From positions 62,001-126,000 of the forward strand of contig NZ_KB894803.1 in NCBI RefSeq assembly GCF_000374645.1: a stretch of DNA of 64,000 nucleotides, given 5' to 3'. Origin of the DNA: Arhodomonas aquaeolei DSM 8974. Lineage in GTDB: Bacteria; Pseudomonadota; Gammaproteobacteria; Nitrococcales; Nitrococcaceae. The notes beneath the pieces were generated by a model that was not told the origin of the DNA, made no database searches, and worked only from the letters and a program-made list of their open reading frames with translations. This document shows positions 29,317 to 35,193 of this stretch, piece after piece. Every line of letters starts with the position of its first letter. Positions within the stretch are counted from its first letter, which is position 1. The position numbers were made by a program, and so were the translations under genes.

Positions 29317-32043
29317 ATGAGTGACCACCCTCCCCTCATCCTGGTGGACGGCTCGTCCTACCTCTACCGCGCCTACCATGCGCTGCCGCCCCTCTCCACC
29401 GCGGACGGCACCCCGACCGGGGCCATCTACGGCGTGGTGAACATGCTGCGCAAGCTCCTCGCGGAGTATCCGGACAGCCCGGTGGGGGTGGTCTTCGACG
29501 CGCCGGGGCGGACCTTCCGCGACGAGCTCTTCGAGGAATACAAGGCCAACCGCCCGCCCATGCCCGACGACCTGCGCAGCCAGCGCCAGCCCCTCGCGGA
29601 GATCGTCGAGGCCATGGGGCTGCCGCACATCGAGATCGCCGGCGTGGAGGCGGACGACGTCATCGGCACGCTGGCGGCCCAGGCCCACGCGGCGGGCCGG
29701 GGCCTGCTGGTCTCCACCGGCGACAAGGACATGGCGCAGCTGGTCAGCGAGCACGTGACCCTGCTCAACACCATGTCCGGCACGGTGCTGGACGTCGCCG
29801 GCGTGGAGGAGAAGTTCGGCGTCACCCCCGGGCAGATCATCGACTACCTCGCCCTGGTCGGCGATACCTCGGACAACATCCCCGGTGTCCCCGGCGTGGG
29901 CCCGAAGACCGCGGTGGCCCTGCTCGCCCACTTCGGCGACCTGGACGCCCTTTACGCCCGCCTCGACGAGGTCGCCGAGGTGAAGGTCCGCGGGGCCAAG
30001 GGCCTCGGCGCCAAGCTGGAGGCCAACCGTGAGCAGGCGTTCCTCTCACGGGATCTCGCGACCATCCGCTGTGACCTGACGCTGGATGTCCGCCCGGAGA
30101 CCATCGGCCGCGGCGAGCCGGACACCGCCCGGCTTGCCGAGCTGTACCGCCGCTACGAGTTCGGCCGCTGGCTCGACGAGCTGCTCGCCGACGCCCCGGA
30201 GGCGGAGGACGGGGATGCGCGCGGCGCGGACAAGGCCGATTACCAGTGCGTGCGCGACGAGCCCGCGCTTGACGCGTGGCTGCGGCGGCTGGAGGCGGCG
30301 GAGTGCTTCGCCTTCGACCTGGAGACCGACAGCCTCGCCTACATGGATGCCGCCATCGTCGGCCTGTCCTTCGCCGTTACCCCGGGGGGGGCCGCCTACG
30401 TGCCGGTGGCCCACAGCACGGACGACGCCGACGGCCAGCTCGCCCGCGAGACGGTGCTGGAGCGCCTGCGCCCGCTGCTCGAGGACGACAGCCACGCCAA
30501 GGTGGGCCAGAACCTCAAGTACGACATGTCCGTGCTCGCCCGCTACGGCATCACCCTGCGGGGCGTGCGCTTCGACACCATGCTGGAGTCCTATTGCCTC
30601 GACTCCACGGCGACCCGCCACGACATGGACTCGCTGGCGCAGAAATACCTCGGCCACCGGACCATCAAGTTCGAGGAGGTCGCCGGCAAGGGCGCCAAGC
30701 AGCTGACCTTCGACCAGGTCGAGGTGGCCACCGCCACCGACTACGCCGCCGAGGATGCGGACATCACCCTGCGCCTGCACGAGACCCTGTGGCCGCGCCT
30801 GGAGGCGCTGCCCGGTCCGGCCGCGGTGTTCCGCGACATCGAGATGCCGTTGCTACCGGTGCTCTCGCGCATGGAGCGCACCGGCGTGCGCGTCGACCGC
30901 GAGCTGCTCGCGCGCCAGAGCGGCGAGCTCGCCGAGCAGATGGCCACCATCGAGGGCCAGGCCTTCGATGCCGCGGACGGCGAGTTCAACCTCTCCTCGC
31001 CGAAGCAGATCCAGGAGATCCTCTTCGAGCGCCAGGGCCTGCCGGTGCTGCAGAAGACCCCCAAGGGCCAGCCCTCCACCGCGGAGTCGGTGCTCGAGGA
31101 GCTCGCCGCCCGCGGCCACGAGCTCCCGCGGCTGATCCTCGAGCACCGGGGCCTGGCCAAGCTCAAGTCGACCTACACCGACAAGCTGCCGCGACTGATC
31201 CACCCGCGCACCGGCCGGGTGCACACCTCCTTCCACCAGGCGGTGGCCGCCACCGGGCGGCTGTCCTCCTCGGACCCGAACCTCCAGAACATCCCGGTGC
31301 GCACGCCGGAGGGCCGGCGCATCCGCCGGGCGTTCATACCCCGGGAGGGCTGCCGGCTGATGGCCGCGGACTACTCCCAGGTGGAGCTGCGCATCATGGC
31401 CCACCTCTCCGGCGACGAGGGGCTCACCCGGGCGTTCGCCGAGGGCGCGGACATCCACCGCGCCACCGCCGCCGAGGTCTTCGGTGCCGAGCCCGCGGCG
31501 GTGACCGACGAGCAGCGCCGCGCCGCCAAAGCGATCAACTTCGGGCTGATCTACGGGATGTCCGCCTTTGGCCTGGCCCGCCAGCTCGGCATCGAGCGCG
31601 CCGACGCCCAGACCTACGTGGACCGCTACTTCGAGCGCTACCCCGGTGTGCGCGCGTTCATGGAGCGCACCCGGGAGCAGGCCCGGGAGCAGGGCTACGT
31701 CGAGACCGTCTTCGGCCGGCGGCTCTACCTCCCGGAGATCAACAGCCGCAACGGCCAGCGCCGCCAGTACGCCGAGCGCACCGCCATCAACGCGCCCATG
31801 CAGGGCACCGCCGCGGACATCATCAAACGCGCCATGATCGTGGTGGACGACTGGCTCGGCCGCGAGCACGACGACGTGTACATGGTCATGCAGGTGCACG
31901 ACGAGCTGGTCTTCGAGGTGCCCGAGGCCAAGACCGACGCGGTGGCGGAGCGGGTCAGCGAGGCGATGCGCCAGGCGGCGGCGCTGAACGTGCCCCTGGA
32001 GGTGGATGTCGGCGTGGGCGAGAGCTGGGAGGCGGCGCACTGA
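29317..32043 (+). CDS. polA: DNA polymerase I
   Basis: This 908-residue polymerase has all three domains. The 5'-nuclease (residues 1-290) shows [12 protein letters not shown] and the acidic cluster GVEADDVIG and [12 protein letters not shown] 3'-5' exonuclease (about 310-500) keeps its catalytic pair in FDLETD, so proofreading is likely active. The polymerase (about 530-908) shows motif [14 protein letters not shown], the O-helix [17 protein letters not shown] and motif [10 protein letters not shown]. Length and motif set match E. coli Pol I. It acts in gap repair and primer removal. The downstream 865-bp spacer before engB is the classical Spot 42/ErsA position. Confidence 0.97.
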
Positions 32044-32141
32044 CGGCATCCGCTCCGGGCGGTCGCGCGATTCCGACAAGTGGCGTGAAAAACCGTCGCG
32101 GCGCGCTGGAACCCCGGCGTGGATGTGCTGTCATTACAAGT

Positions 32142-32277
32142 GCGCCAGTGCCCGGCGCGGCTCACGTCTCACCCATTCCCACGGGTGCGTGAGCCTCTAC
32201 CGGCCCGGTCCTGCCCCCAAGCCCGGGTCGCTTGCCCCGAGCCGCCATCCCCCATGGTGCTCGGGGTCTTTTATTTT
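32142..32277 (+). ncRNA. candidate small RNA at the Spot 42/ErsA locus
   Basis: A sequence like an RpoE/AlgU promoter (GGAAC at 32108-32112, then GTCATT at 32130-32135) would start a transcript near 32142. A hairpin follows: CTCACG 32161-32166 with CGTGAG 32188-32193, inner CACCC 32170-32174 with GGGTG 32183-32187. The transcript would end at the terminator at 32235-32277. The implied length, about 135 nt, is close to ErsA of Pseudomonas, which is driven by the envelope-stress sigma factor and sits in the same place after polA. No sequence identity to ErsA or Spot 42 is claimed. It could instead be just the polA terminator. Confidence 0.45.
32235..32277 (+). terminator. Rho-independent terminator
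   Basis: CCCCGAGC (32235-32242) pairs with GCTCGGGG (32259-32266). An inner CCAT/ATGG stem (32245-32248 with 32254-32257) extends it. The U-rich tail TCTTTTATTTT follows at 32267-32277. It is one of only three U-tract terminators seen in the window. Confidence 0.85.
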
Positions 32278-32363
32278 CGGGCATTTATGTACGGGGCCGG
32301 GGAGCTCCTCCATGCCGCCGGCGTCGCCGGACAACCCCGATCCCGGATCGGTCGACTACGCGC

Positions 32364-32680
32364 GGCAACCGACGGTCGCGGTGGTGTGTCGCCCCGCATG
32401 CCGGGGCCCGTCGCTGGGGCGGGGGTGTCGCGCGCCTGTGGCGTCCGGTCCGCACGAACGCTCGACCGCTCTCCCCTTCCGTGGGCCGGCGGGTTCCCCT
32501 GTAACCGCTATTTTTGTACCCGTGATTGTCGATTGCCTTCGAGCAACCGGTCGATGGCAGATTCGGCGCGACGTCGGCTGCCGGGAGCAGCCGACCCAAG
32601 GGAGGGGCCGAACCGCCGCGATCCCGGGTACGTCGGTCGTTCCCGGCAACCGACAGCCACGGCGGTGTCGCCCGGCATGC
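32364..32680. repeat. pair of imperfect 36-38-bp structured repeats
   Basis: Copy A (32364-32401) and copy B (32645-32680) both begin GGCAACCGAC and end GCATGC, with substitutions and a 2-bp indel between. In each the ACCGA(C) pairs with an upstream (G)TCGGT (32348-32352 and 32632-32637) to form a hairpin. The spacing is about 280 bp. They look like a dispersed palindromic repeat family. Confidence 0.5.
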
Positions 32681-32720
32681 ACGGGCAGGGGGCGCCGGGT
32701 GCCCGTCGGTAGGCCCCCGC

Positions 32721-32747
32721 GTAGGTTGTGCGCCGCAGGCGTGCAAC
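32721..32747 (+). repeat. GTAG-type REP element, single copy
   Basis: A GTAG head (32721-32724) is followed by a 10-bp stem-loop (32725-32747, loop GCA) that includes two adjacent G-T wobble pairs. The same head, stem position and wobble pairs recur in both copies at 42100-42182, with a compensating T-A to C-G change. This is the form of REP sequences mobilised by RAYT transposases. Confidence 0.65.
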
Positions 32748-32908
32748 GTCCCGCACGGATGTCGGGCACCACCTGCGGCCATGCGGAACGTGCCGGATGC
32801 CGGTGTCATCGCGGCCATGAACAGGCCTGTGGTCGATGGAGGCCGGCGACAGTGCCTGCTTCCCGCTCACCACCGGCGAGCTCTTCCCGGCAAAGTGCGG
32901 TGACCCCT

Positions 32909-33541
32909 TTATCCGGGTTCCGGCACTTCCGCGTCACCGGCGTCCGTGAGCCATTCGTCCAGTCGGGCGTGCAGCTCGTCCACGCCGGTGGCCTTCGCCG
33001 CCGAGAACAGCTGTGCGCTGGTCTCGGGGTAGTCGCGGTCGAGCGCGGCGCGCACCCGTTGCAGGGTGTTCATCGCCGGGCCGCGCTTGAGCTTGTCCGC
33101 CTTGGTGAGCAGCACGTGCGCCGGCAGTCCCGCCTGGATGCACCACTCGAGCATCTGCCGGTCGTAGTCGGTCAGCGGGTGGCGCACATCCATGATCACC
33201 ACCAGCCCGCGCAGGCTCACGCGCTCGGCAAAGTAGCGCGGCAGTGCCTCCTGCCAGTGCACGCGCACGCGCTGGGGAACCTTGGCGTAGCCGTAGCCGG
33301 GGAGGTCTATGAGCCGCAGTGTGCCCTCGTCGTTCAGCGGGAAGACATTGATCGCCTGGGTCCGCCCCGGCGTCTTGCTGGTGCGTGCCAGTGACTTCTG
33401 CCCGGTGAGGGTGTTGATGGCGCTGGACTTGCCGGCGTTGGAGCGTCCGGCGAAGGCGACCTCGGCCCCGGAGTCCGGTGGCAGGTGCGTGACGTCCGGC
33501 GCGCTCAGCAGGAAGCGGGCCTTGCGGTAGAGCGGATTCAT
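32909..33541 (-). CDS. engB: ribosome biogenesis GTPase EngB (YsxC/YihA)
   Basis: This 210-residue GTPase of the TrmE-Era-EngA-YihA group is required for assembly of the large ribosomal subunit. Motifs are G1 GRSNAGKSS (near residue 32), G2 KTPGRTQ, G3 [10 protein letters not shown] and G4 TKADKL. The start at 33541 ([15 protein letters not shown]) is the family N-terminus; upstream in-frame codons have no match. The gene is convergent with polA and divergent from the cytochrome c4 gene. The tail (DAEVPEPG) is short and acidic. Confidence 0.95.
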
Positions 33542-33756
33542 GCCAGGTTCCACGGTTGCCGGCGACGGCGTGACGGGGCGGGATTGTCGCAGATGCGCAG
33601 CACGGGCGCCACGGCGCCAAATTGACCCCTCGGGGGGCGGCTGGTATAACGTCCCGTGCCTTTTCCCGGGGGCCCGGAGCGCCATATCGTGCAGGTGAAC
33701 CGGTCGACTACCCGCACCCCCGGACGAGTCCAGCCGGTATAGGAGAAAGCTGCATC

Positions 33757-34464: not shown

Positions 34465-34566
34465 GCGTCCGAGGCTCCCGTCGCGGCTGGACGGGAACTG
34501 TCGGCGGATGACACGGTCTCCTGCATGAACCGCGCTTGTGAGACGACAACAAGGGGGACGCTCTTG

Positions 34567-35193
34567 ATGGCACGGTGGATGATGACGATGCTTGCGGCGC
34601 TGGTGCTGGGCACCGGCAGCGCGATGGCCGCGCCCCAGGCGGGCAATGAGTACCGGGTGCTGGATCAGCCACAGCCCGTCGAGACCGAGGGCGGTGTGCA
34701 GGTCCGCGAGTTCTTCTCCTATGGCTGCCCGCACTGCAACGACTTCCATCCGCTGCTCGCCGACTGGCAGGAGCGCATGGGTGACAGGATCGCGCTGGAG
34801 CACGTGCCGGTGAGCTTCGGCCGCGACTCCTGGAAGCTGCTCGCCAAGGCGTTTTACGTGGCCCAGGTGCTCGGCGTGCTCGACACGACCCACGACGCCG
34901 TGTTCAAGGCCATCCACGAGGACGGCCGGCGCTTCTCCAGCCCGGAGGACATCGCTGACTTCTACGGCGAGCTCGGTGTGGACCGGGACAAGGCGCTGGA
35001 CGCGTTCGACTCCTTCGCGGTGACCATGAAGATGCGCCGCGCCGAGCGCCTGGCCCGAGAGTACCGGATCCAGGGCACTCCGACGCTGACCGTGGCCGGG
35101 CAGTACGTGATCGACGTGCGCGCCGCCGGCGGCCAGGCGGGTATGCTCGACGTCGCCAGCTACCTCGTGGAGCGCGAGCGCTCCGGCGATTGA
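34567..35193 (+). CDS. dsbA: periplasmic thiol:disulfide oxidoreductase DsbA
   Basis: This 208-residue thioredoxin-fold protein has a signal peptide (about residues 1-21, cleavage after AMA), the active site C54-P-H-C57 and the cis-proline loop GTPT. It inserts disulphides into exported proteins; its partner DsbB is not in the window. The ATG at 34567 is chosen because AAGGGGGA precedes it and the signal peptide then has normal length. An ATG at 34525 would add 14 residues. The gene order cytochrome c4 then dsbA is conserved in gammaproteobacteria. It overlaps the next gene by 4 bp. Confidence 0.95.
   Translation: MARWMMTMLAALVLGTGSAMAAPQAGNEYRVLDQPQPVETEGGVQVREFFSYGCPHCNDFHPLLADWQERMGDRIALEHVPVSFGRDSWKLLAKAFYVAQVLGVLDTTHDAVFKAIHEDGRRFSSPEDIADFYGELGVDRDKALDAFDSFAVTMKMRRAERLAREYRIQGTPTLTVAGQYVIDVRAAGGQAGMLDVASYLVERERSGD

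Follow-up and report, generated by a model that had tools for sequence, protein, structure and literature searches.

A very probable regulatory RNA of about 135 nucleotides between polA and engB, with C-rich loops on four hairpins and a promoter of the envelope-stress type

The gap between polA and engB in the window (the whole 64-kb stretch of DNA that was analyzed, from a genome of 3.96 Mb) very probably encodes a regulatory RNA of about 135 nucleotides whose four loops are C-rich and whose switch is of the envelope-stress type. Our preferred reading, to which we give a probability of roughly 0.7, is that of a stand-alone small RNA (sRNA) of a polA–engB superfamily that is transcribed from its own sigma-E-type promoter, is induced by envelope stress, and represses G-rich target mRNAs in trans through its C-rich loops. 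That structure, location, and form of the promoter are conserved is a computed result. The segment begins ∼100 nt past the polA stop codon, and the locus is organized as follows.

29317–32043, forward strand: polA (DNA polymerase I), the upstream neighbor, an ORF of 908 aa
32108–32113, forward strand: −35-like box GGAACC of a sigma-E-type promoter, read from the sequence; GAAC–GTC spacing fixed in 27 of 28 copies from the order of the host genome
32130–32135, forward strand: −10-like box GTCATT, read from the sequence; GTC retained in 27 of the same 28 copies
32139–32277, forward strand: predicted small RNA; 5′ end placed at 32139–32143 and 3′ end at 32272–32277 by the fold and the match to covariance model R2
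32142–32158, forward strand: hairpin 1 of the fold, GCGCC-AGTGCCC-GGCGC, with a C-rich loop; near-invariant in the 28 copies
32159–32195, forward strand: hairpin 2 (fold and alignment A1), loop CATTCCCA
32201–32230, forward strand: hairpin 3 of the fold, CCCCC in the loop region; CCC invariant in alignment A1
32234–32267, forward strand: hairpin 4 of the fold, the terminator stem, with a CCCCC loop
32268–32277, forward strand: U-rich end of the terminator, which reads CTTTTATTTT
32909–33685, reverse strand: engB (ysxC/yihA GTPase), the downstream neighbor, an ORF of 258 aa

The RNA is predicted to fold at −71.1 kcal/mol (z = −5.77), a value equalled by none of 200 shuffles, with its C-rich loops mostly unpaired. 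The original prediction had described two hairpins and a terminator; hairpins and terminator are indeed present, but by the fold there are four hairpins, of which the fourth is the terminator stem. Its estimate of a transcript of about 135 nt, near ErsA in length, agrees with our predicted length of about 130–139 nt and with the 132 nt given for ErsA in PMC5819304. Loop 2 of the window RNA is without TCCCTCC, which is present in 17 of the 28 aligned copies (alignment A1). A simple terminator scan of positions 31900–32600 returned no hit; its pattern needs a loop of 3–8 and a plain stem, whereas this terminator has bulges in its stem. A protein-coding reading of the segment appears unlikely: long ORFs overlap the RNA (e.g., 32006–33394 and 32119–32712), but length changes between relatives together with covariation fit an RNA. 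A scan of the entire 64-kb window at Rfam gathering thresholds produced no matches. From the terminator of the RNA to engB, no gene or RNA family was recognized in the ∼630 bases at 32278–32908, and polA and engB are 869 bases apart in the window versus 140–454 bases in relatives having both genes.

Within the order of the host genome, the RNA is conserved in sequence, structure, and location. A DNA search of 40 relatives (cut-off of E ≤ 10) led to 30 loci; the number of genomes matched is meaningless because at this cut-off every genome gives some match. A PolA homolog (C-terminal part) adjoins 27 of the 30 loci, and a common 5′ motif is found in 28 loci from 28 genomes, with Nitrococcus, Spiribacter, Alkalilimnicola, Aquisalimonas, and Methylonatrum among the named relatives. 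All 28 RNAs have the four-hairpin fold, and their loops contain CCC in 109 of 112 cases and GGG in none. Model R1, built from these 28 copies, has matches in 49 of 54 genomes from the order, or 21 of 26 when the 28 seed genomes are set aside. Copy number varies: one genome, that of Alkalilimnicola ehrlichii AK92 (loci L156 and L242), has three copies, two of them separated by ∼2.4 kb on the contig with polA and the third on a different contig, with neither PolA nor EngB alongside. One locus of the DNA search, L030, is unrelated and has an Rfam group II intron match at 1288–1390 (RF02001, 41.1 bits).

The RNA is also widespread across the class. R1 matches 98 of 369 sampled class genomes (E ≤ 0.01), and among 99 class loci fetched for R1, which were selected without regard to position, PolA is encoded in 66, EngB in 74, and either or both in 87. 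Of the 12 loci with neither, two (L060 and L066) span only 2.2 kb. Alignment A3 consists of 61 matches from outside the order, and in these 27 of 30 base pairs show two-sided changes, 90.2% of cells are paired, and the covariation score is 0.524, compared with 0.166 for shuffled and at most 0.071 for slid alignments, a result that is favored because A3 was fitted to the structure. From A3 we derived R2, a covariance model without sequences of the order. R2 matches the window at 32139–32272 (57.1 bits, E = 8.4e-12) and nowhere else in the 64 kb at E ≤ 10, and in the whole genome the window RNA is the one strong match (E = 5.1e-10; the next has E = 0.095). This match is not wholly independent because the rows of R2 were picked with R1; the location next to polA and engB is independent evidence.

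R2 matches 189 of the 369 class genomes (E ≤ 0.001), and 50 of the loci fetched for it were unlisted by R1; PolA or EngB is present in 36 of these and neither in 14. In a sample of the phylum, 40 of 299 genomes have R2 matches (E ≤ 0.01). Twelve of these genomes lie outside the class, and neither PolA nor EngB was found at any of the five loci examined from them. An exact 20-base scan of genome contigs returned 52 stretches, many of which are in unrelated bacteria and are probably chance matches. Ten stretches from Pseudomonas were checked and none of these has PolA or EngB, therefore ErsA was reached via models.

The promoter-like element GGAAC-N17-GTCATT anticipated between polA and engB is present, with GGAAC starting at 32108, and occurs once in the 64 kb when both strands are considered. 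Because the looser pattern GAAC-N17-GTC, which has the same gap as that upstream of the RNA, occurs 16 times in the window, the boxes alone are weak evidence, and the promoter claim therefore rests on conservation. Among the 28 copies from the order, the GAAC–GTC spacing is 17 bases in 15 and 18 bases in 12, with L002 (GAAACTT) as the sole exception; the −35 box of the window is GGAACC, and the commoner form is GAACTT. Across the class, the strict pattern GAAC-N15..18-GTC precedes 59 of 111 matches; when those upstream sequences are simply shuffled, it occurs in 0.8% of the shuffles. The other 52 matches fail the strict pattern, and many of them come close to it, for example with GAACTT and then ATC. 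The genome encodes RpoE (313.5 bits, above the cut-off), and a GAAC-N17-GTC of the same form and spacing as that before the RNA lies ∼70 nt ahead of the rpoE ATG. The resemblance of the boxes to the RpoE/AlgU class suggested in the original prediction thus appears to hold, judging from this recurrence before rpoE and retention in 27 of 28 copies. A simple scanner found no sigma-70-type promoter in positions 31900–32600. Elsewhere in the window, GGGAACT and GGTCTC at 34493–34518, also with a GAAC–GTC gap of 17 bases, resemble a sigma-E-type promoter upstream of dsbA.

The location and orientation of copies bear on whether the RNA is a gene of its own. The proximity to the polA stop codon and the terminator at the end of the segment would be expected if the stacked hairpins only end or protect the polA mRNA, with no promoter of their own and any short RNA being a processing product, and the stop codon of polA is overlapped by the GAAC box in genomes of the Spiribacter type. 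Nevertheless, in 5 of 27 copies of the order with an adjoining PolA (L024, L025, L026, L028, and L029, all from a single family), the RNA and polA are on different strands and the RNA has its own boxes. The same opposite orientation occurs in 6 of 74 class matches having PolA. The spacing of the boxes is conserved, and tandem copies have boxes of their own. In two genomes of one genus, four RNA matches each are arranged in tandem near polA (L056, 867–1617; L225, 1661–2582), and 7 of these 8 copies have strict GAAC-N-GTC boxes. We therefore regard a mere 3′ end of the polA transcript as very improbable and favor a stand-alone sRNA gene, and in this respect the original proposal of a separate gene at the position of ErsA is upheld by the comparison.

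Which sigma factor reads the promoter is a separate matter. The sRNA could be real and belong to the family, but have a promoter that is read by another factor, such as a different ECF sigma factor, and answer to a signal other than envelope stress. The GGAACC form of the −35 box in the window is compatible with this, the RpoE model has one further match in the genome that is weaker (29.6 bits) and does not reach the cut-off, and sX13 has been reported to be constitutive (PMC3771888). However, the boxes and their spacing equal those before the genome's own rpoE and before ErsA, and we consider control by another sigma factor to be quite unlikely relative to control by sigma-E.

For the preferred sRNA, we infer expression, control by sigma-E, a loop-to-mRNA mechanism, and repression of envelope mRNAs. 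Under envelope stress, sigma-E (RpoE/AlgU) would transcribe the RNA from its own promoter, and transcription would stop at the terminator of the RNA. The RNA would act in trans: the single-stranded C-rich loops of its four hairpins would bind target mRNAs at G-rich ribosome-binding sites or enhancers, and such pairing would lower the translation of targets, providing a repressing arm for sigma-E. The loop-to-mRNA step is carried over by analogy from sX13, whose C-rich loops, as described in PMC3771888, act on G-rich motifs near start codons to repress mRNAs independently of Hfq. The window's genome has hfq. Duplex folding of the RNA against the leaders of hfq and rpoE forced pairing over the whole length and is uninformative on targets. 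The ribosome-binding region of dsbA (likely ATG at 34567), AAGGGGGACG, is one that could meet the C-rich loops.

The 2013 paper on sX13 raised the question of whether such RNAs are encoded at polA in other bacteria too (PMC3771888). For many gammaproteobacteria, our counts in sampled genomes (98 of 369 by R1 and 189 of 369 by R2) answer yes. They also suggest that three catalog entries belong to a single branching family, in many cases with a promoter of the envelope-stress type. If this is true, sigma-E has an RNA partner that is conserved beyond the enterics, which could be tested in cultured salt-loving relatives. Within open-access PubMed Central, we found no paper that names both ErsA and sX13, and among the matches listed, none describes a wider polA-locus RNA family in its title or the start of its abstract.

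Of the known systems, Spot 42 (RF00021) shares only its location in the polA–yihA (engB) gap with the window RNA. Membership was rejected: Rfam gives no Spot 42 match at E ≤ 10 in positions 31900–33000, and R2 finds nothing in the Spot 42 locus of E. coli, a yardstick on which the Spot 42 model scores 122.8 bits. The original prediction placed the RNA at the position of Spot 42, and the likeness is confined to that position; the covariance search with the ErsA and Spot 42 models, which had been put forward as a check, does not place the RNA in either family.

Anti-hemB (Burkholderia RNA 7, RF02837) likewise has C-loop hairpins, and a 105-nt transcript is reported from biofilms of B. cenocepacia (PMC5688073). 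Its threshold of 49.5 bits is passed by five loci that adjoin EngB (L058, L263, L265, L268, and L270) and by L269 and L273, for which the sequence examined includes neither PolA nor EngB. The window gives no anti-hemB match at E ≤ 10, and its RNA is not assigned to that family.

ErsA (RF01719) likewise occupies the polA–engB gap, is ∼130 nt long, and has the GAAC...GTC form of promoter (L158 and f164 loci). It is described as sigma-22 dependent (PMC5819304, PMC8575079) and as having three stem-loops and a U-rich unstructured middle (PMC8575079), in contrast to the four hairpins of the window RNA. The ErsA model scores 20.3 bits on the window, over model positions 34–108 only and below the gathering threshold of 50. 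Likeness to ErsA extends to position and to the sequence form of the promoter, and by Rfam score it is weak for the body of the RNA. Among class genomes, the ErsA model matches 22 of 273 (one over the cut-off), and it matches none of 14 controls. R2 scores 29.7 bits on the ErsA locus L158, and a search of the whole genome carrying that locus (G200) gave no R2 match at E ≤ 0.01. R2 did find nine more polA–engB loci of the family of L158 (L266, L267, L271, L272, L277, L278, L280, L281, and L282), and a scan of one of these, L266, with Rfam identified it as ErsA (138.7 bits).

sX13 (RF02232) is likewise located downstream of polA and has C-rich stem-loops, CCCCC in the last loop, and a similar length (115 nt). 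In the window RNA, the first hairpin is stable and the promoter is of the sigma-E type, whereas sX13 is described as constitutive, with an unstructured 5′ region and three stem-loops (PMC3771888). The sX13 model matches the window over its full length at 23.8 bits, below the gathering threshold of 50. By Rfam score, the window RNA is therefore closer to sX13 than to ErsA and is a member of neither. The sX13 model matches 12 of 273 class genomes (E ≤ 0.01; two over the cut-off) and, among 14 control genomes, one (Thermus). In 20 first-round loci from the order and elsewhere, the best scores are 42.4 bits for sX13, 32.4 for ErsA, and 35.8 for anti-hemB, all below threshold.

These likenesses could have arisen without common descent if the site after polA is favorable and was reused, with C-rich hairpins directed against ribosome-binding sites having evolved repeatedly in RNAs that are real but unrelated to sX13, ErsA, and anti-hemB. 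C-rich hairpin RNAs do cross-score, as illustrated by the relative L005, which scores similarly with sX13 (42.4 bits), 6C (41.1 bits), and Scr3202 (40.8 bits), all below threshold. R2 also reaches an ar14-like alphaproteobacterial C-loop RNA (L260, 1501–1628; R2 50 bits, ar14 below threshold) that is away from polA, with neither PolA nor EngB found nearby, a match that convergence could explain. In addition, every Rfam score of the window is below threshold, and the promoter boxes are absent from sX13 (loci L061 and L072 are without GAAC-N-GTC). Conversely, the locus and the series of hairpins are the same, the promoter form also matches at ErsA-type loci, and R2 gives 46–52 bits to sX13 loci of three genomes. 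We judge wholly independent origins to be unlikely.

We infer common descent with sX13, ErsA, and anti-hemB, though the likeness could partly reflect convergence. Rfam places none of the three in a clan. By a match to R2, with rows chosen using R1, the window RNA belongs to the polA–engB C-loop superfamily, and the simplest reading is of what looks like one superfamily that Rfam splits into several families. More tentatively, and with somewhat less than an even chance in our estimation, an ancient sigma-E-driven polA–engB RNA that existed early in Gammaproteobacteria (Burkholderia-type lineages included) may be ancestral to sX13, ErsA, anti-hemB, and the window RNA. It may have been a general repressing arm of sigma-E where RNAs of the MicA/RybB type are absent, with its gene flipped in place in some lineages, arranged in tandem in others, and deprived of the sigma-E promoter in Xanthomonadaceae.
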